From positions 1-9,674 of the forward strand of contig CAINUH010000171.1 of the NCBI GenBank assembly GCA_903853735.1: a DNA stretch of 9,674 nt, read 5' to 3'. Of the stretch, positions 381-9,674 are shown in pieces. The notes beneath the pieces were generated by a model. The model was not told where the DNA came from. It worked only from the letters and a program-made list of their open reading frames with translations, and made no database searches. The DNA comes from an uncultured Desulfomonile sp. Its GTDB lineage: Bacteria > Desulfobacterota > Desulfomonilia > Desulfomonilales > Desulfomonilaceae. Made by a program: the position numbers and the translations under genes. Within the stretch, counting starts at the first letter, position 1; the number at the start of each line of letters is the position of its first letter.

Positions 381-1175
381 TTAGGTAAAATGGGAGATCT
401 CAAGAAACCGGTCGATAATGTATTTGCCCGAAAACACGTAAAGGATAGCGGTAGAACTCAAGAATGGCCCGAATGGAATGGGAGTAGTGGATGCCGAACC
501 CTTCGTCAGCATGCCCACAAGAGCGGCCAGTGATCCGGTGAGAGACGAAAAGAACAGGACGAAGACCACCCCGTATGGTCCTGTAAAAGCCCCTATCATT
601 GCCAGAAGCTTTATGTCCCCTCCTCCAAGCCCCTCGATACCCCTTATTTTCTCATAGAGGAAAGCTGGAACGTAAAGAACAGCGGCCCCAAAAAAAGCAC
701 CTCCAAGTGAGGACTGCCAGTCCAAATTGGGGATCAGACCGGCGAACGACGCCACAATTCCAACGGGAATCCCGTTAAGAGAAATGGCATCCGGAATGAT
801 CATGTGATCCAGATCGATCCAGAAAACCACCGACATGGCAGAGCAAAATAAGAGATAAGTCACGAATGCGGCATTAAACCCGCATTTCAGATACAAGGCC
901 GTGCACAGACATGCGCTGATGAACTCTATCACCGGATACCGCAGGGAAATCCTGTTGCCGCAATCCCTGCAGTGACCGCCCAGCAAAAAGAAACTGAGTA
1001 CGGGCATGTTGTCGTAGAATCTAATGTTACGACCACATTCCGGACATCTTGAAGCCGGATAGGTGATGGATTGGCCTTCTGGAAGGCGAATAATCACAAC
1101 ATTGAGAAAACTGCCGACCACAGCGCCTAACAGGAAGGCTAATGCGGCCTCAAAGATATCCGTTTGCATCTGCAT
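381..1175 (-). CDS. pilD: Prepilin peptidase / N-methyltransferase (A24 family)
   Basis: Inner-membrane aspartic protease that removes the leader of type IV pilins or type II secretion pseudopilins and usually methylates the new N-terminus. At 264 residues it has normal family length. Residues 10-31 match the family opening (GAVVGSFLNVVIIRLP). Two cysteine pairs, C44/C47 and C69/C72, form the zinc-binding cytoplasmic loop typical of bifunctional enzymes. The catalytic aspartates lie in WIDLDHMIIPD (D121/D123 region) and in GGGD (D187). The rest is about seven hydrophobic segments. The ATG at 1175 follows AGGA by six bases; a second ATG two codons in is also possible. No pilin or assembly ATPase gene is visible, so the substrate is unknown. 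Because ComEC lies about 3.5 kb away, processing of a DNA-uptake pilus is possible. Confidence 0.93.
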   Translation of the reverse strand: MQMQTDIFEAALAFLLGAVVGSFLNVVIIRLPEGQSITYPASRCPECGRNIRFYDNMPVLSFFLLGGHCRDCGNRISLRYPVIEFISACLCTALYLKCGFNAAFVTYLLFCSAMSVVFWIDLDHMIIPDAISLNGIPVGIVASFAGLIPNLDWQSSLGGAFFGAAVLYVPAFLYEKIRGIEGLGGGDIKLLAMIGAFTGPYGVVFVLFFSSLTGSLAALVGMLTKGSASTTPIPFGPFLSSTAILYVFSGKYIIDRFLEISHFT

Positions 1176-1196: not shown

Positions 1197-1367
1197 TCAT
1201 TCCCAAGAGTTCAGGCCTAGTACTGTTGACCCCAAGGAGAATCGGACATCATTGCCGGCAACGACTATGACATCATACTCCTCAGTCCGGTCTACGACTT
1301 GGAGGATGATCGGCGGCGTCTCCGAAGCCGGTGTTGAAGGTCTTGAAACTGCCTCTAAACTCGACTT
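1197..1367 (-). other. Coding-like tail in the -1 frame after the DprA-like gene
   Basis: After the TAG at 1355-1357 the -1 frame stays open for 56 codons, from 1367 to a TGA at 1197-1199. The translation looks like ordinary protein (TPPIILQVVDRTEEYD, then VIVVAGNDVRFSLG). It has no ATG, GTG or TTG in a position to start it with a ribosome binding site. It could be the lost C-terminus of the preceding gene after a one-base indel, a remnant of another gene, or chance. I see no slippery heptamer for programmed frameshifting. Confidence 0.3.
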
Positions 1368-2971
1368 TCAATGCCTGCCGACTCGACCCTGTAAGAGACT
1401 TGAGGCCCCATGAATTCCTCCTCTTCCATTGTAGCAACGATTACCACAATATCGCTGCAGGATACAGCGTTGAGGGTGATATCCCCAACAATTCTCCATT
1501 CTTTTTCCAAGGACCAGTCATTTGACGAGGTCATTTTTACTTGAAACAAGTGTTTTACAGATTCGGAAAGTTTCACGTAATCTTCATCCTTGCCATAGAT
1601 TACCTGGAGCGCTCCCAGTTTCATGAGGGAGGCTCGACGAATCCCTATTGCGTAAGGCTCAAAAGACCATCTAACAAGGCCGGGACGCCACTTGACGATA
1701 TTGCGTAGCAGTGAAGGCTCACATTCGCTGAAACAAACTACCCGCGTTTCTCCACGAGTAAGCTTATTGCCGGCTCGAATGACTCCTTCTCGCAAAATCC
1801 GCGCCAGAGTGTCCAGGGCGGTGTGTCCGGCATCGTTGCACCCGTTAATTAGAGATCGCCAATATTCTCCAATGGTTTGACCAGGCCAGGGACCCGGGCA
1901 AGAGCGCGTGTAGTGGTAAAGAAAAACCGATTCTTCGGAGCAATGAGCGTCCGATGGGTAAATTGAAGAGTTTGCAGTCGAGTCCTCCGGCGCTCCTTGG
2001 ATATTTGTTCGGCCGGATTTTGAGGTTCCCGAATCAAGGCCGGTCTTGATGCTTCCATGGGCTTCTCTGGACTCCAGCGCCTTCGCTGCGCGATTCCGGC
2101 CGCGCTCTTTTTCCAATTCCACTGTATTATGAAGCCTGACTGGTGCCCTCCTCCTCGTGGCAACATCCAAGACAGCTTCCATGTTTCCACCCGCCCGCGC
2201 ATCTACTGCATGGATCTCGCAGGATAAGGCGGCGACCATGTGGTCCCTCTCCAACAATCGCTGGGGCACGGCGGGTTGAGTTCCGGGAGGGAAAGGAGAC
2301 AGAAACAAAGTGTGTCGAAAATCAAAAACATCGCCGTATTCCGACACGAATTTTGCTCTGCCTTTCGAGGGATTCATGAAAGGCAGCAGGTTCGGGCAGA
2401 CTATTATAGTCGGGAACCCCTTTGACAGTAAACTGACCAGAAAGTAACCAGGAGTTCCATAGCTTGATACTATTGCGCAACCTTTTTCCGTGGCCGACTC
2501 GGCCAGCACTCTAGTGGTCAATAGCCAGGGATCCAGAGGCGTTATCCGCCTGGACCTTCTTGAACTGAGAATAGAAACAGAAGGTTTTTCAAGAATTGCG
2601 CTATCACCGAAGGCGAAAAAAACCGGAGGCGGGTCGTGCAATTCCGGGAAGGGGGATTTCAATTGATCCTTGCGGATCAAGAATATGCCTTGTTCCATCC
2701 AATCTTCGGATTGTTTGGCAGCCCTGAGGATTTCATTGATACTGATGGATTCTTGAGCGCCATGAGCTACCCCTGCTTTGAGGAAGGCTTTTTGCACCTC
2801 CTCCATAGCCTCTACCGGAGAATAGATGTCGAAAGGACGTACAGCGGCTGACACCTGCGATCGAACTCGACAGTTCAAATCAGCGTGCTTGGAAACAAGG
2901 GAGGCAGTGAACAACGCTGAGGTAAGGTTACTGGCCGTCAAGGACCTGCGCCGAAACAATCCCGCCGTCAT
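1355..2971 (-). CDS. DprA/Smf-like Rossmann protein fused to a DUF2971/AbiGi-like domain
   Basis: 538 residues, apparently two domains. Residues 95-280 follow DprA/Smf order: a P-x-LHDPPPVFFAFGD lead-in, a strand and SSRRSRR loop (134-142) where DprA has GSR, IVSSYGTPGY (167-176) where DprA has SGxAxGID, and RDHMVAALS then VDARAGGN (242-263) where DprA has R-xx-IAxLS and VEAxxxSG. Residues 281-345 are a polar, probably disordered linker. Residues 348-520 contain LYHYT (351-355), LARILREGVI, VVCFSE (411-416), RWSFEPY (434-440), VIYG and EKEWRI (489-494), a pattern like DUF2971 or AbiGi-type proteins and perhaps an ADP-ribosyltransferase-like fold. No signal peptide or membrane segment is seen. 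The start is uncertain: ATG 2971 lacks a clear ribosome binding site, and ATG 2806 (483 residues) is an alternative. A defence role is inference; the DprA resemblance is the stronger call. Confidence 0.7.
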   Translation of the reverse strand: MTAGLFRRRSLTASNLTSALFTASLVSKHADLNCRVRSQVSAAVRPFDIYSPVEAMEEVQKAFLKAGVAHGAQESISINEILRAAKQSEDWMEQGIFLIRKDQLKSPFPELHDPPPVFFAFGDSAILEKPSVSILSSRRSRRITPLDPWLLTTRVLAESATEKGCAIVSSYGTPGYFLVSLLSKGFPTIIVCPNLLPFMNPSKGRAKFVSEYGDVFDFRHTLFLSPFPPGTQPAVPQRLLERDHMVAALSCEIHAVDARAGGNMEAVLDVATRRRAPVRLHNTVELEKERGRNRAAKALESREAHGSIKTGLDSGTSKSGRTNIQGAPEDSTANSSIYPSDAHCSEESVFLYHYTRSCPGPWPGQTIGEYWRSLINGCNDAGHTALDTLARILREGVIRAGNKLTRGETRVVCFSECEPSLLRNIVKWRPGLVRWSFEPYAIGIRRASLMKLGALQVIYGKDEDYVKLSESVKHLFQVKMTSSNDWSLEKEWRIVGDITLNAVSCSDIVVIVATMEEEEFMGPQVSYRVESAGIESRV

Positions 2972-3208: not shown

Positions 3209-3550
3209 TCAGTTGAAAAGGCCTTCGAGGTCGTCCTCCGAAACGTAAACCGACCCATCCGTATCGGTGTAGAGCGTGATCTTGTCCGATATGTTGTAGT
3301 CAGCTCCGGAAAGCACTACCACTCTACCCTTGGATTTTTCAAGAGAATCCCACTCTTCTTTTGACGCCTTCCATGGGATCTCATCCTGGTCTACAACGTA
3401 ATTGCCGCTCCAGTGAGTCTCATACGACGTTCCGGTTTTTTTGTAAAAATCTCTCACGTTGTACCACCCCTCCGACTCCATGACAGGAATCAGGTCTTCC
3501 TCCAGACGAATCGGGATCACCAACAGCAGCTTCTTCACCGGTGCTTTCAT
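3209..3550 (-). CDS. Hypothetical 113-residue acidic protein coupled to rodZ
   Basis: I do not recognise this family. The product is a small soluble-looking protein without signal peptide or membrane helix, rich in Asp, Glu and Tyr, with a short hydrophobic strand near the N-terminus (KLLLVIPI) and an acidic C-terminus (VSEDDLEGLFN). The middle reads like alternating strands and turns (VVVLSGADYN, then ITLYTDTDGSVYV). The ATG overlaps the TGA of the upstream rodZ gene in an ATGA tetranucleotide. AAGGA (complement of 3557-3561) lies six bases before the start. The overlap strongly suggests one transcript and coupled translation with rodZ. Coding status rests on the ribosome binding site, the overlap and the protein-like composition. 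Function is unknown. Confidence 0.75.
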   Translation of the reverse strand: MKAPVKKLLLVIPIRLEEDLIPVMESEGWYNVRDFYKKTGTSYETHWSGNYVVDQDEIPWKASKEEWDSLEKSKGRVVVLSGADYNISDKITLYTDTDGSVYVSEDDLEGLFN

Positions 3551-4395
3551 CCTAAATCCTTAGGAGCGGTTTGTGGTCCGTATATGTTTTCCGTGAGCGA
3601 CCTGTTTACATCTGTTTTTTTCTCTAGACACGGAAGCGTCAACGAGAGTGACTGGTTCATTTTCCCCAGCACAGGCAGTTCCCGGCCATCGTAACGCAGC
3701 CTCATGCCACCGGCATTGCCTGTCTGTAAATTGAAAACCTCATTCGCAGTAAAGACCTGTATGTCCCCCGGAGCCATCATAAGTTCCTCAGTAGCCCCAG
3801 CGTCAGGTTCCACCCTCACCCAAGTATTGGCCAAGGCTTTAATTTCAAGAATTTTCTTTCCCGCCTGCTTTCTAGGAGGATCGGCAAAAAAGCTCTTCCC
3901 AGATACCTTTTCGGCCTGCATGCGGGAATTCAGGGAAACAGGACTCCCTGCCTGACTTGTCACCGCCGAAGGCTGTACGACATGTGCAACCTCGTCGGAA
4001 AAAATAAGGCGACTTACTCCGGTAATGATGAGGATACATAGAGAAAGTAGGCCGGCCGCTGTAAGAACTATCGTGAACCACTTATTATGTATAAATGAAT
4101 GTGTAGGAGAGACTTGCTGAAAAACTGGGTGTCCCTCTTCAGCATAGTCGGACAACTCTCCTTCACTTATGTATTCTTCGAATTTCCTCACCACGTCGCC
4201 TGCGTCCAAACCAAGTTCTTGGACATAAGACCTTATGAAACCTTTCACGAACACCCGTGGAGGCAGCAGGTCATAGCGATCCTTCTCCATGAATTCCAGA
4301 TTCGCTACCGCCACTTTGGTGCTTTCCGATATTTCTTCCAGAGTCTTCCCGGCTTCCTCTCTAAGGCTCTTCAGATATGGTCCAAAGGATTCCAT
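3547..4395 (-). CDS. rodZ: RodZ-type HTH membrane protein with C-terminal DUF4115 domain
   Basis: 282 residues in the RodZ arrangement. Residues 1-75 are a cytoplasmic helix-turn-helix of the HTH_25 type (FGPYLKSLREEAGKTLEEIS, then the family motif LPPRVFVKGFIRSY at 44-57). About 106-128 is a single transmembrane helix flanked by NKW and R. A polar linker (135-180) leads to a beta-rich DUF4115-like domain at 183-255 (LEIKALANTWVRVEPD, then MMAPGD). In E. coli RodZ the HTH binds MreB and the protein helps keep rod shape; the same role is inferred here. HTH-plus-DUF4115 proteins of unproven function also exist, so the symbol is provisional. The ATG at 4395 has only a distant AAGGTG. The gene is coupled to the downstream 113-residue gene by a four-base overlap and diverges from comEC. 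Confidence 0.82.
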   Translation of the reverse strand: MESFGPYLKSLREEAGKTLEEISESTKVAVANLEFMEKDRYDLLPPRVFVKGFIRSYVQELGLDAGDVVRKFEEYISEGELSDYAEEGHPVFQQVSPTHSFIHNKWFTIVLTAAGLLSLCILIITGVSRLIFSDEVAHVVQPSAVTSQAGSPVSLNSRMQAEKVSGKSFFADPPRKQAGKKILEIKALANTWVRVEPDAGATEELMMAPGDIQVFTANEVFNLQTGNAGGMRLRYDGRELPVLGKMNQSLSLTLPCLEKKTDVNRSLTENIYGPQTAPKDLG

Positions 4396-4619: not shown

Positions 4620-7151
4620 GTGACAACCTTTTCCCAAACAACTGAACGCTATCCAGCCTTTGTGGCAACTATTTCTCTTTGCCTGGGCATACTCGTCGCA
4701 CACTGGATTGACGGGGCTTCGTGGGGACTCCGGATCGGTCTCGTAATAACCGCTTCGATAGTCACACCGGCCATGTTGTGGCAGGACAAGAGATTCCTAT
4801 GGTCTGCCGTGGCTATTATTTTTTTTGTTCTTGGATTGAATGTAGCCACGAGAGAGCTTTGGGAAGGGCGAGACTTTGAGCCTTCCAATGCTTCGGTCTG
4901 TGTTCAAGCCACTGTTGCAAAGACCTGGTCGACAGGGCCTGATTTTAGGATCTTGCTGGTAGGATCAGGAATCGAATCGGAATCCGACCGACCGTTGCCG
5001 GGATTGGGCAGATTGTTTACCAGAAATGATTCGCTTCCCCTGCTCGCAGGCGATAGAGTGGCTTTCCGTTCAAGAATCAGAAAGCCCGTCAACAGGGGCA
5101 ACCCGGGCGAATTTGATTGGGAGCTGGATTGCAGAAATAACGGGATTTGTTGGTTGGCATCAGTTAAAGGGCCCGGGTCTCTTCTCGTATTGAGACGCGG
5201 GTCCCCCTATGACCCCAGAGCCGTGATGTTCAGAATTCGGGATACCATGACGCGGTTCCTGGATACCAATTCTGCCCGGTTCTTGGATGATGAGGCTAGA
5301 GTCAACGTCAGGGCCGTTCAAAAAGGAATTATTTTGGGGGACATGGGGGAAATCAGCCCTGCTCTGAACAAGAGTTGGGCAGAATCAGGGATTGCTCATG
5401 CCTTGTCGGCTTCGGGTGTTCACATCGCAATAGTGGCTTTGCTCTCTCTCTTTCTTGTGAAATCAGCCGGGTATGCGGCACCGCAAATCTTTTTACGCGT
5501 ACCTTTCAGGAAGCTTGGAGCACTTGCTTCTGTCCCTGCCATGGTGCTTTACTGTGTGCTCGTCGGCGCCAGAGTCCCTGCAATCAGGTCCACCATCATG
5601 GGATTGGTCGTAGCTGCGGCCATTCTTCTGGATCGAAGATGGAATTCCCTTAACTCGCTTGTCGTGTCGGCCTTGATCATTCTTCTGATTTATCCACTTT
5701 CTCTGTTTACTCCAAGTTTCCAGCTTTCCTTCCTGGCTGTGGCAGGCATTTTGATGGTGTTCGGCAACGTCCGTAGGCATGTCTACGGCCATAACAACCG
5801 AGCAGTCGAAGGGCCGACTCCTGGTCCGAACATCAAGAATGAATCCGCGTTTGGGGCAAAACTTGCCACTGTCAAAAGGGCCTTAACGATCCTGATCGTC
5901 ACATCACTGGCTGCCACCCTTGCGATAGCACCGCTCATCCTCCAATACTTTCATTCGTTTCCCGTGTACACCTTGTTTGCGAACCTCGTGACCGACTTTG
6001 CGATGACTCTCGCGTTATCTCTTGGATTATCAGCTTCTACAATAGGATGCGTATGGCCAATGTTGGGGTCCATTCTTCTGGCGCCATCCGATATATTGGT
6101 ATGGACAATAAACAAGACTGCCGATTTCTTCTCAGGGCTGCCTTGGAGCACTGTGCGTCTCGCACACATGGGCGTGATGGAATTCATTCTCATTTCAGGC
6201 TCCGCATGGACTTTTCTCTGGTACCTGGGCAAACCTTCAAGAAAGGTTCTCCTGTCCTTTGCTGCGGTACTGTCTGGAACAGTCATTTTCCTCGGATTCT
6301 CGACGTGGATTACCGATAACAAAACTGGGTTGAAAGTAGTTTTCCTGAATGTTGGCAAGGGAGACGCGATCTTTGTAAAACCTCCCAGTTCCAAGGGATT
6401 GCTTATAGATGGAGGAGTTTACACAAATCAATTTGACGCAGGACGTAGTATCGTATTGCCATTCCTTGATTGGACGGGTGCATCCACCCTGAACGCAGTA
6501 ATAATGACGCATCCTGATATGGACCACATGGGAGGGCTTCTTTCAGTGGTTCAAAGAATTCCGTCCCTGCGCTTCCTTTGGAATCCTGTGCAGGCAAACG
6601 TGTTTCATCTGGAAAAGATACTGTCGGCGACTCAAATTTCAGGTGCGCGGGTGGAATCAGTCTCGCGGGAGAGCGAACCAATAGCACTCGGATGTGCCGT
6701 CCTGACATTTCTGAACAAAGCGTTTCCCTCATACCAAGACAGCCATTCACGCTATAACGTCAACAACTATTCTGTGGTCTGCCGCCTGGATCACGGACAA
6801 TCCTCTTTTCTCTTCACTGGAGACTTGCAGCGCGAAGGAGAACAAGAACTTCTTGAGTCAGGCTTGCCGCTCAAAGCTACTGTGCTCAAGGTAGCCCACC
6901 ACGCCGGCAACACAGGAACAACCAGGCGTTTCGTAGAAGCAGTACGACCGGACATTGCAGTCATTTCGGCAGAGCACCCTCCTGTAAGAGGATTGCCGAA
7001 CATGGACGTAATCAATCGGCTTGAATGCGCTGGGACCCGCATTCTTTGGACCGGCCGGGATGGAGCGATCACCATTGAATCCGACGGCGTGATGCTGAGA
7101 AATGTTGCCCTGGGCAAGAGGCACAAGAGTTCCGGGGAACCGGTCTTTTGA
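4620..7151 (+). CDS. comEC: ComEC/Rec2 DNA internalization protein
   Basis: 843 residues, a full-length three-domain ComEC. Residues 15-190 are two N-terminal membrane helices and the DUF4131 region (OB-like). Residues 230-565 are the polytopic Competence domain with the signature HALSASGVHIA (260-270) and ARVPAIRS (317-324). Residues 572-825 are a metallo-beta-lactamase domain with THPDMDHMGG (metal ligands H631, D633, D635, H636), FTGD (D735) and AHHAG (H760/H761), so the nuclease centre looks intact. The usual FLDVGQGD opening reads FLNVGKGD here (N577). ComEC carries single-stranded DNA across the inner membrane during natural transformation. The start is GTG at 4620, the only candidate after an in-frame TGA at 4605; its ribosome binding site is weak. 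It is transcribed away from rodZ, and no comEA or comF is visible. Confidence 0.95.
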   Translation: MTTFSQTTERYPAFVATISLCLGILVAHWIDGASWGLRIGLVITASIVTPAMLWQDKRFLWSAVAIIFFVLGLNVATRELWEGRDFEPSNASVCVQATVAKTWSTGPDFRILLVGSGIESESDRPLPGLGRLFTRNDSLPLLAGDRVAFRSRIRKPVNRGNPGEFDWELDCRNNGICWLASVKGPGSLLVLRRGSPYDPRAVMFRIRDTMTRFLDTNSARFLDDEARVNVRAVQKGIILGDMGEISPALNKSWAESGIAHALSASGVHIAIVALLSLFLVKSAGYAAPQIFLRVPFRKLGALASVPAMVLYCVLVGARVPAIRSTIMGLVVAAAILLDRRWNSLNSLVVSALIILLIYPLSLFTPSFQLSFLAVAGILMVFGNVRRHVYGHNNRAVEGPTPGPNIKNESAFGAKLATVKRALTILIVTSLAATLAIAPLILQYFHSFPVYTLFANLVTDFAMTLALSLGLSASTIGCVWPMLGSILLAPSDILVWTINKTADFFSGLPWSTVRLAHMGVMEFILISGSAWTFLWYLGKPSRKVLLSFAAVLSGTVIFLGFSTWITDNKTGLKVVFLNVGKGDAIFVKPPSSKGLLIDGGVYTNQFDAGRSIVLPFLDWTGASTLNAVIMTHPDMDHMGGLLSVVQRIPSLRFLWNPVQANVFHLEKILSATQISGARVESVSRESEPIALGCAVLTFLNKAFPSYQDSHSRYNVNNYSVVCRLDHGQSSFLFTGDLQREGEQELLESGLPLKATVLKVAHHAGNTGTTRRFVEAVRPDIAVISAEHPPVRGLPNMDVINRLECAGTRILWTGRDGAITIESDGVMLRNVALGKRHKSSGEPVF

Positions 7152-8619: not shown

Positions 8620-9261
8620 TTAGACTCCACGAGCATCCGGCGTCCAAATATACTTGTGAATCTGCAACTGGAGCCTTGCCTGGATGTTGTCCGTGAGCAT
8701 CCAATGAGCCAGATGTCGTGGGTGCAGTTCCCCGAATACCGTGGAAAAAAGTATCCCGGCCTTTGTGTCCGCCAGTTTTTCAAACAAGGTTTTCTTGACC
8801 CACTCGTAGTCATGCCGGTTTGATATCACAAACTTGATCTCATCTTCAGGCCTCAACTCAAGTATATTCTCCCACCTCATTTTGTCGCTTTCTCCGCTCG
8901 ACGGACATTTTATGTCCATGATTCGGATTGCCTCTTGAGGCAAAACTGAAATATCCTGAGTCCCGTTGGTTTCCACCAGAACTTTGCAATCCTTTTCGAT
9001 GAGGGCGGCCGCAAGATCCGCGGTTTTTCTTTGGATGAGGGGTTCGCCTCCTGTTATTTCCACAAGGCTGCATTGGTATGAGACGACCCTGGAAAGGATC
9101 TCGAGCACTGACGTCTCTTCCCCTTCATTGTAGGCGTAACGAGTGTCACAATAGCGGCAGCGAAGATTGCACCCGGCCAGTCGTATGAATACGCACGGGA
9201 GCCCTGAATAGGAGGATTCGCCCTGAATACTCTTAAAGATTTCTGAAACTTGTAATACCAT
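8620..9261 (-). CDS. queE: 7-carboxy-7-deazaguanine synthase (radical SAM)
   Basis: QueE converts 6-carboxy-tetrahydropterin to 7-carboxy-7-deazaguanine, a step towards preQ0 and queuosine, with a 4Fe-4S cluster and S-adenosylmethionine. Diagnostic features: VSEIFKSIQGE at the N-terminus, GCNLRCRYCDT with the C-x3-C-x2-C cluster motif (C35, C39, C42 counting from the upstream GTG), VEITGGEPL (the GGEP SAM-binding motif), LVETNGT and a C-terminal LQLQIHKYIW. Length is about 213 residues, normal for the family. The start at ATG 9261 fits family length; an in-frame GTG at 9273 would add four residues, and neither has a well-placed ribosome binding site. queC, queD and folE are not in view. The gene is convergent with the CoA-transferase (68-bp gap, no clear terminator hairpin) and divergent from the ferredoxin-type gene. 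Confidence 0.94.
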   Translation of the reverse strand: MVLQVSEIFKSIQGESSYSGLPCVFIRLAGCNLRCRYCDTRYAYNEGEETSVLEILSRVVSYQCSLVEITGGEPLIQRKTADLAAALIEKDCKVLVETNGTQDISVLPQEAIRIMDIKCPSSGESDKMRWENILELRPEDEIKFVISNRHDYEWVKKTLFEKLADTKAGILFSTVFGELHPRHLAHWMLTDNIQARLQLQIHKYIWTPDARGV

Positions 9262-9282
9262 TGCTCTATCCACTTATTACGA

Positions 9283-9362: not shown

Positions 9363-9514
9363 CGGCCAAATGTCTACCAATACTGATTTGCTTTCAAACG
9401 AGGAAGCGTGCAGGCATGGCAGAAAAGGTATTGGATAATTAGCCACTTGAACTCGAATCGGTATGATGGTGTGGGACACAAACAACCGGTGAGCCCGGTC
9501 TCGGAGGCAAAGGT

Positions 9515-9674
9515 TTGGGGAACGTTGTAGTTAGATTTCTTCCTGATGACGTTGTAGTAGAAATTCCCGATGGACAGTTCTTGTTGGATGCGGCGCTGGA
9601 AGCCGGGGTTTTTATTCGGGCGGCCTGTGGAGGCTCAGGTGCCTGCGGTCACTGCAAGGTGAGGGTTCTCAGCG
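9515..9674 (+). CDS. 2Fe-2S ferredoxin N-terminus of a RACo/DUF4445-type ASKHA protein, partial
   Basis: 53 codons are visible before the window ends. They form the start of a plant-type 2Fe-2S domain: VVVRFLPDDVVVEIPDG (4-20), LLDAALEAGV (23-32) and CGGSGACGHCKV, with cluster ligands C38, C44 and C47; the fourth cysteine would lie outside. The opening RFLPD plus the AALEAGV and CGGxGxCGxC patterns is typical of DUF4445/RACo proteins, which reductively reactivate corrinoid methyltransferase proteins using ATP. An ordinary ferredoxin cannot be excluded. The start appears to be TTG at 9515: GGAGG (9503-9507) is seven bases upstream, and no ATG or GTG lies in frame after the stop TGA near 9463. 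No corrinoid protein or methyltransferase is visible. Confidence 0.75.
   Translation, partial: MGNVVVRFLPDDVVVEIPDGQFLLDAALEAGVFIRAACGGSGACGHCKVRVLS

Follow-up and report, generated by a model that had tools for sequence, protein, structure and literature searches.

ADP-ribosylation of DNA in bacteria is known mainly from toxin–antitoxin enzymes. For DprA, two motifs for single-stranded DNA (ssDNA) have been described, G-S/T/A-R and F/L/Y-x-x-R-N/D (PMC9769556); DprA homologues serve as antitoxins of two-gene systems (PMC9122126), and SLOG domains are described either as nucleotide enzymes or as domains that sense DNA or nucleotide ligands (PMC9503650). Literature searches on the families AbiGi and DUF2971 returned, in the partial texts retrieved, no described mechanism. 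The gene dealt with here lies in a stretch of 9,674 nucleotides from an uncultured Desulfomonile sp. (assembly GCA_903853735.1, contig CAINUH010000171.1), the whole of which is called the window in what follows; judged from its sequence, the encoded protein is a fusion, in one frame, of a DprA half and an AbiGi/DUF2971-type half. It is tentatively read as a protein in which the ssDNA-motif Arg and Asp survive in the DprA half and the predicted fold of the other half is that of a DarT-like ADP-ribosyltransferase (ART), a reading that we hold to be plausible, if rather short of probable.

The open reading frame (ORF) occupies positions 1355–2971 of the minus strand, exactly as given in the initial annotation made from the letters alone, starts with ATG and encodes 538 amino acids (aa); a TTG at residue 11 (position 2941) is a possible alternative start, near which several homologues begin. 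All the motifs quoted in that annotation—DPPPVFFAFGD, SSRRSRR, SSYGTPGY, RDHMVAALS, VDARAGGN, LYHYT, VVCFSE, RWSFEPY and EKEWRI—are present in the translation, and the linker it placed between the two halves does appear flexible, the predicted local distance difference test (pLDDT) of residues 305–345 being below 50 in the structure model. The folds of both halves are likewise predictions from the model. The gene and its parts are:

1355–2971, minus strand: DprA–ART-like fusion gene, 538 aa (ORF, Pfam, homologues, structure model)
2693–2935, minus strand: N-terminal helical part, residues 13–93, as in DprA/ShosA (model helices; 8zva alignment from residue 12)
2096–2689, minus strand: DprA Rossmann domain, approximately residues 95–292, with S137 R138, R242 D243 and the altered loop SSYG at 169–172 (Pfam, structure match, alignment)
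1937–2059, minus strand: low-confidence linker, residues 305–345 (model pLDDT)
1358–1936, minus strand: C-terminal AbiGi/DUF2971-type domain, approximately residues 346–538, with a predicted ART-like fold and H353, S415, E489 and E491 (fold matches, profile comparison, alignment)

Concerning the N-terminal half, the Pfam family PF02481 (DprA) matches residues 107–293 with an E-value of 6.8e-8 and 32.4 bits, above its gathering score of 29.6, and since many homologues covering nearly all of the protein exist as well, the observation goes beyond chance. Structure comparison of the model found the helical and Rossmann fold of DprA in this half, ShosA, a DprA-like antitoxin, being the top-ranked solved structure, so that the DprA-type nature originally proposed for residues 95–280 is upheld. 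The alignment (n = 171) shows that S137 R138 and R242 D243, which belong to the ssDNA motifs, have been retained. The SGLARG loop, seen in 15/15 canonical DprA proteins from the same genomes, is mostly S-S-Y/L-G in the fusions; the loop change pointed out at the outset is thus real, but the ligand other than ssDNA that had been deduced from it is not supported, since the fusions still carry the Arg and Asp of these motifs, and the DprA half may well bind ssDNA. A separate canonical dprA, the presence of which had been raised as a question, scores over the cut-off in 23 of the 24 fusion-bearing genomes reached through the fusion loci.

The C-terminal half of the window protein gives no match in a Pfam scan, to AbiGi (PF10899) or any other family. 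Among 58 aligned C domains (alignment A2, from which 12 repeat loci had been dropped, with 58 of the 61 references left being used and L021, L050 and L077 out), 13 match AbiGi (best 9.7e-5) and one matches DUF2971 at E-values up to 1. Profile–profile comparison of these 58 domains gives 97.6% (E 4.8e-12) for AbiGi, the profile of which comes from only three sequences, and 92.9% (E 3.6e-7) for DUF2971, with 17 unrelated control families reaching at most 0.75%; the standalone C-domain set alone gives 96.5% and 7.8%, respectively. The assignment of this half to the AbiGi/DUF2971 type in the initial annotation is therefore confirmed by the profile comparison. Its further step, from AbiGi-like to effector, does not follow, because the Pfam name of AbiGi is that of an antitoxin, and because the lactococcal AbiGi by itself had no inhibitory effect on E. 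coli (PMC3985639). The eight window proteins scanned with Pfam include neither an AbiGii-type partner nor a Macro match that would indicate a DarG-type macrodomain neighbour.

The best fold matches of the C-terminal model are the DNA-modifying DarT and then the RNA-acting Tpt1/KptA, rather than protein ARTs. The residues E489-x-E491 occur in 170 of the 171 aligned sequences, the remaining one having a gap, and correspond to the E/Q-x-E motif of the ART superfamily, their equivalence to the ART catalytic Glu resting on the motif and the strand order. The near-invariant polar residues are H353, T355, R356, R406, E489, E491 and R493, both glutamates being unvarying. It can be supposed that the C-terminal half uses NAD+ with E491 (and H353 and S/T415) in the active site, and that DNA is its target. 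Each half suggests nucleic acids, the DprA half by its ssDNA residues and the C-terminal half by its nearest folds, those of DarT (ssDNA) and Tpt1 (RNA). A tethered ssDNA-directed ART would be the simplest mechanism: the DprA half would grip ssDNA and the tethered ART-like half would mark the bound DNA with ADP-ribose from NAD+. The DprA half may also keep the enzyme inactive as long as no DNA is bound, much as antitoxins of the DprA-like kind hold back toxins that are separate proteins. The setting would be uptake, repair or surveillance, steps at which the cell itself deals with ssDNA that is imported or exposed, and not a mobile defence island.

The protein search with the fusion yielded 173 matches; among the 120 matches listed, the query included, 89 span 90% or more of the query length, the identities other than the query's own being 34–51%. 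The scan of genome contigs with the single fusion protein as query found nothing, and that with the alignment, which used patterns from the C-terminal half only and so samples carriers of that half, found 30 loci, in Desulfomonile-like genomes, Desulfacinum, Desulfosoma, Desulfoferrobacter, Desulfarculales, other Deltaproteobacteria, LCP-89 and Lindowbacteria. Separate half-profiles place both halves in one open frame in 29 of these 30 loci, the exception (L021) being cut by a contig edge; the domain pair thus recurs in other genomes, and the possibility considered in the initial annotation that the halves never occur together falls away. Three of the fusion frames are longer (982, 790 and 881 aa; L014:8282–11227, L015:9029–11398 and L017:1396–4038), with long N-terminal parts that have no Pfam match and may be open frame only. 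Viral contigs gave one C-domain relative and no fusion, and plasmids three weak C-domain matches, in Streptomyces. In the phylum of one carrier, 395 genomes were scanned and the profile matched 72 of them, most of the weak ones with the N-terminal half alone, as an ordinary DprA would. Seventeen carry the two halves in a single frame and 11 a C-domain protein alone, alongside one C part located at the edge of a contig and one weak match to the C domain.

In the family of the Desulfomonile record G001, to which the window probably belongs given the same gene block and its close relatives, the fusion is present in 17 of 18 genomes, a canonical dprA over the cut-off in 16 of 18 and DarT in one of 18. 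A macrodomain was considered as a functional partner of the fusion and set aside: it is found in 15 of the 18 genomes; in G334, G010 and G421 it shares a contig with the fusion, at ~12 kb, ~31 kb and ~2.3 Mb, respectively, and no linkage is claimed. In the tree of 73 C domains, 15 of which are additions taken from the 120 C-domain proteins listed, the 46 fused domains occupy one side of a branch and the 27 standalone ones the other, with a support of 100 in the Shimodaira–Hasegawa-like approximate likelihood ratio test, the stretch PGPWPGQ common to the fused rows contributing to the split. Because the fused domains form one side of this branch, the fusion would most simply have arisen once. 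Of the 15 genomes carrying both genes, two with partial genes were left out; over the remaining 13, the distances in the fusion and dprA trees go together (Mantel r 0.84; 0/5000 permutations as high), which is consistent with a mostly vertical inheritance, with little internal resolution.

The neighbouring genes in the window are:

381–1175, minus strand: pilD prepilin peptidase gene, next downstream of the fusion after a 179-bp gap (Pfam, gene order)
3209–3550, minus strand: conserved 113-aa protein between rodZ and the fusion, no Pfam match (ORF, gene order)
3547–4395, minus strand: rodZ-like gene, HTH_25 and RodZ_C (Pfam)
4620–7151, plus strand: comEC/rec2 DNA-import channel gene, divergent from the rodZ–fusion–pilD run (Pfam, NCBIfam)

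The order comEC (divergent), rodZ, a gene of 112–116 aa, fusion and pilD is kept in 8/8 further genomes of the family and also in L001, L003 and L008, so that the block is complete in 11 of the 17 fusion genomes of the family, 16 of which (all but G351) were read; it agrees as far as the contigs reach in two more (L006 with L021; L007). The fusion and pilD share 4 bp in L138 and are separated by only 3 bp in L143, which suggests that in these two loci they share a transcript. This genomic context points to a role in the cell's own handling of ssDNA. Twenty neighbours were annotated in other loci, 15 with a Pfam match (Obg, YchF, ThiC, RlmN, BPL_N, AAA, a transporter, a methyltransferase and others) and five without; no known defence family was recognised by Pfam, the only resource applied to these 20, among the 15 matched ones, nor among the window neighbours.

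The 113-aa protein (3209–3550), kept between rodZ and the fusion in 8/8 genomes, is a possible partner; its weak match to the PADLOC model REase_II (E 0.027) is not convincing. A gene family with a BPL_N Pfam match in L013 and L016 lies slightly upstream of the fusion in L009, L013, L016 and L018, overlapping it in L009 and L013, and the fusion in L018 is immediately preceded by a 377-aa ORF (L018:2004–3137) that BLAST groups with the fusion family, with no Pfam or half-profile match. At the far end of the window, 8620–9273 of the minus strand is a QueE gene (best NCBIfam model TIGR04349, rSAM_QueE_gams, 254 bits, under the cut-off of 300), and an open frame starting at 9500–9674 of the plus strand has, by eye, a cysteine-rich stretch like that of a 2Fe-2S ferredoxin.

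Several observations weigh against a DprA-guided ART of this kind. In the N-terminal half, the TIGR00732 dprA equivalog gives 29 bits against the NCBIfam cut-off of 191.15, the Gly of motif 1 is lost (Asn in 145/171) and motif 2 opens with F/L/Y in only part of the sequences, this position being variable. For the C-terminal model, Foldseek gave no match at an E-value of 0.001 or better (best 0.29), and the VIA Z was below 8 throughout, a range that carries the tool's own warning; against the DarT profile no significant similarity emerged (1.0%, E 0.053; 1.1% for the standalone set), and the C-domain profile has eight matches among sequences of solved structures (best E 0.17), no ART chain among them. 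Furthermore, the fusion and dprA trees have only 4/10 splits in common, the block is broken within the family in L002 and L004 (other upstream genes) and L010 (pilD apart), and the loci read outside the family show neither comEC nor pilD.

The single-gene defence system proposed in the initial annotation does not find support, and a defence-island reading is ranked lower because the fusion is present in 17/18 genomes of the family, at a kept place in the comEC/rodZ/pilD block, and its annotated neighbours include no known defence family; neither patchy presence, in the 18 genomes, nor defence-island surroundings, among the Pfam-matched neighbours, were seen. The same three points tell against a one-chain toxin–antitoxin, in which the DprA half, like ShosA or PsyrA, would restrain a toxic ART half and free it on infection, leading to abortive defence. 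This alternative is unlikely, despite the rank of ShosA among the solved structures, the description of DprA homologues as antitoxins (PMC9122126), the relationship of the C-terminal half to AbiGi and the standalone C-domain gene of L147, which has an HNH protein and an Eco57I-like methylase as neighbours. At E-values up to 1, 33 of 43 fusions match the PADLOC models of PsyrA (best 5.2e-11) and 23 of 43 those of ShosA (best 1.4e-10), and an antitoxin role was considered on these grounds; the matches were dismissed as generic because the 3/3 canonical DprA proteins scanned score far better (ShosA 2e-71 to 1.5e-68, PsyrA 2.4e-39 to 6.9e-37). There is also no separate toxin gene, as in ShosTA or PsyrTA, beside the fusion in the window, where the neighbours are pilD, rodZ, comEC and the 113-aa protein.

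Many ART folds modify proteins, and RecA is bound by DprA. The C-terminal half could accordingly act on proteins, for instance RecA or SSB bound to ssDNA, the DprA half doing no more than guiding it, and the E-x-E motif is also found in ARTC enzymes that modify proteins, SdeA among them (PMC11281641); the best fold matches, DarT and then Tpt1, not protein ARTs, make this rather improbable. Equally improbable is a non-enzymatic C-terminal half, a binding or antitoxin-like module in a DNA-handling accessory protein: the naming of AbiGi as an antitoxin by Pfam, the lack of inhibition of E. coli by the lactococcal AbiGi and the weak Foldseek scores speak for it, and the near-invariant polar residues, of the kind expected in an active site, against it.

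The C-domain profile matches 2313 proteins, the best 120 of which were listed (in one further search, the best 120 of 166). The standalone C-domain gene lies between phoH and lnt in seven of the nine loci read (L146, L148–L152 and L154), with ybeY called in five of the seven, alaS in six and a release-factor gene in three; the family names in this block come from L148, that of ybeY from L154 as well, and at four of these loci longer overlapping frames mask the C-domain frame in the gene calls. The placement phoH–(ybeY)–lnt puts an ART-like protein in a ribosome-maturation setting. In L153 the gene is elsewhere, and one standalone copy matches PADLOC AbiGi (2.8e-5). Taking L147 into account, the C domain occurs both in housekeeping nucleic-acid settings and in a defence-like one. 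An action on RNA ends or tRNA as in Tpt1/KptA, with a DprA half binding nucleotides or RNA, would suit this RNA-maturation setting and the second structural group, but is very unlikely, since the ssDNA motif residues are kept and E489 and E491 are unvarying, whereas Tpt1, to our knowledge, lacks the ART catalytic Glu.

If a likely ART is indeed tied to an ssDNA-binding DprA half, DNA ADP-ribosylation would be part of ordinary DNA handling, and AbiGi and DUF2971 would gain a testable function. The full extension, a housekeeping DprA-guided DNA ADP-ribosyltransferase that is a core enzyme encoded with comEC/pilD and marks imported or exposed ssDNA, with the AbiGi/DUF2971 superfamily as a nucleic-acid-directed ART clade, is as a whole improbable on present evidence. 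The titles and abstract openings retrieved include none on a DprA fusion with an ADP-ribosyltransferase and none pairing DprA with a DarT enzyme, and a text search of the main text of a survey of NAD+-ADPr systems in viruses (PMC9503650) gave no AbiG, DUF2971, Smf or DprA.

Compared with the known systems, the fusion shares with canonical DprA/Smf (TIGR00732, PF02481) the helical and Rossmann fold as well as the S/T-R and R-N/D of the ssDNA motifs, but has an SSYG-type loop for SGLARG, an added ART-like domain and a score far under the dprA equivalog cut-off. ShosA and PsyrA are antitoxins of two-gene systems (PMC9122126), whereas the fusion is one chain, with scores to their family models under those of ordinary DprA. 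Thoeris ThsA (SIR2-SLOG), an established defence effector, has SIR2 in place of the ART-like domain and the other domain order (PMC11204291). DarT1 and DarT2 (PF14487), which are ssDNA ADP-ribosyltransferases, give the best fold matches of the C-terminal half and likewise have the Glu in an E/Q-x-E motif, although this half has neither significant profile similarity nor a Pfam match to DarT. Finally, AbiGi (PF10899) and DUF2971 (PF11185) are homologous to the C-terminal half by profile comparison, but their frames (3 + 20) measure 222–329 aa with no DprA half reported, whereas the fusion has 538 aa and carries one.
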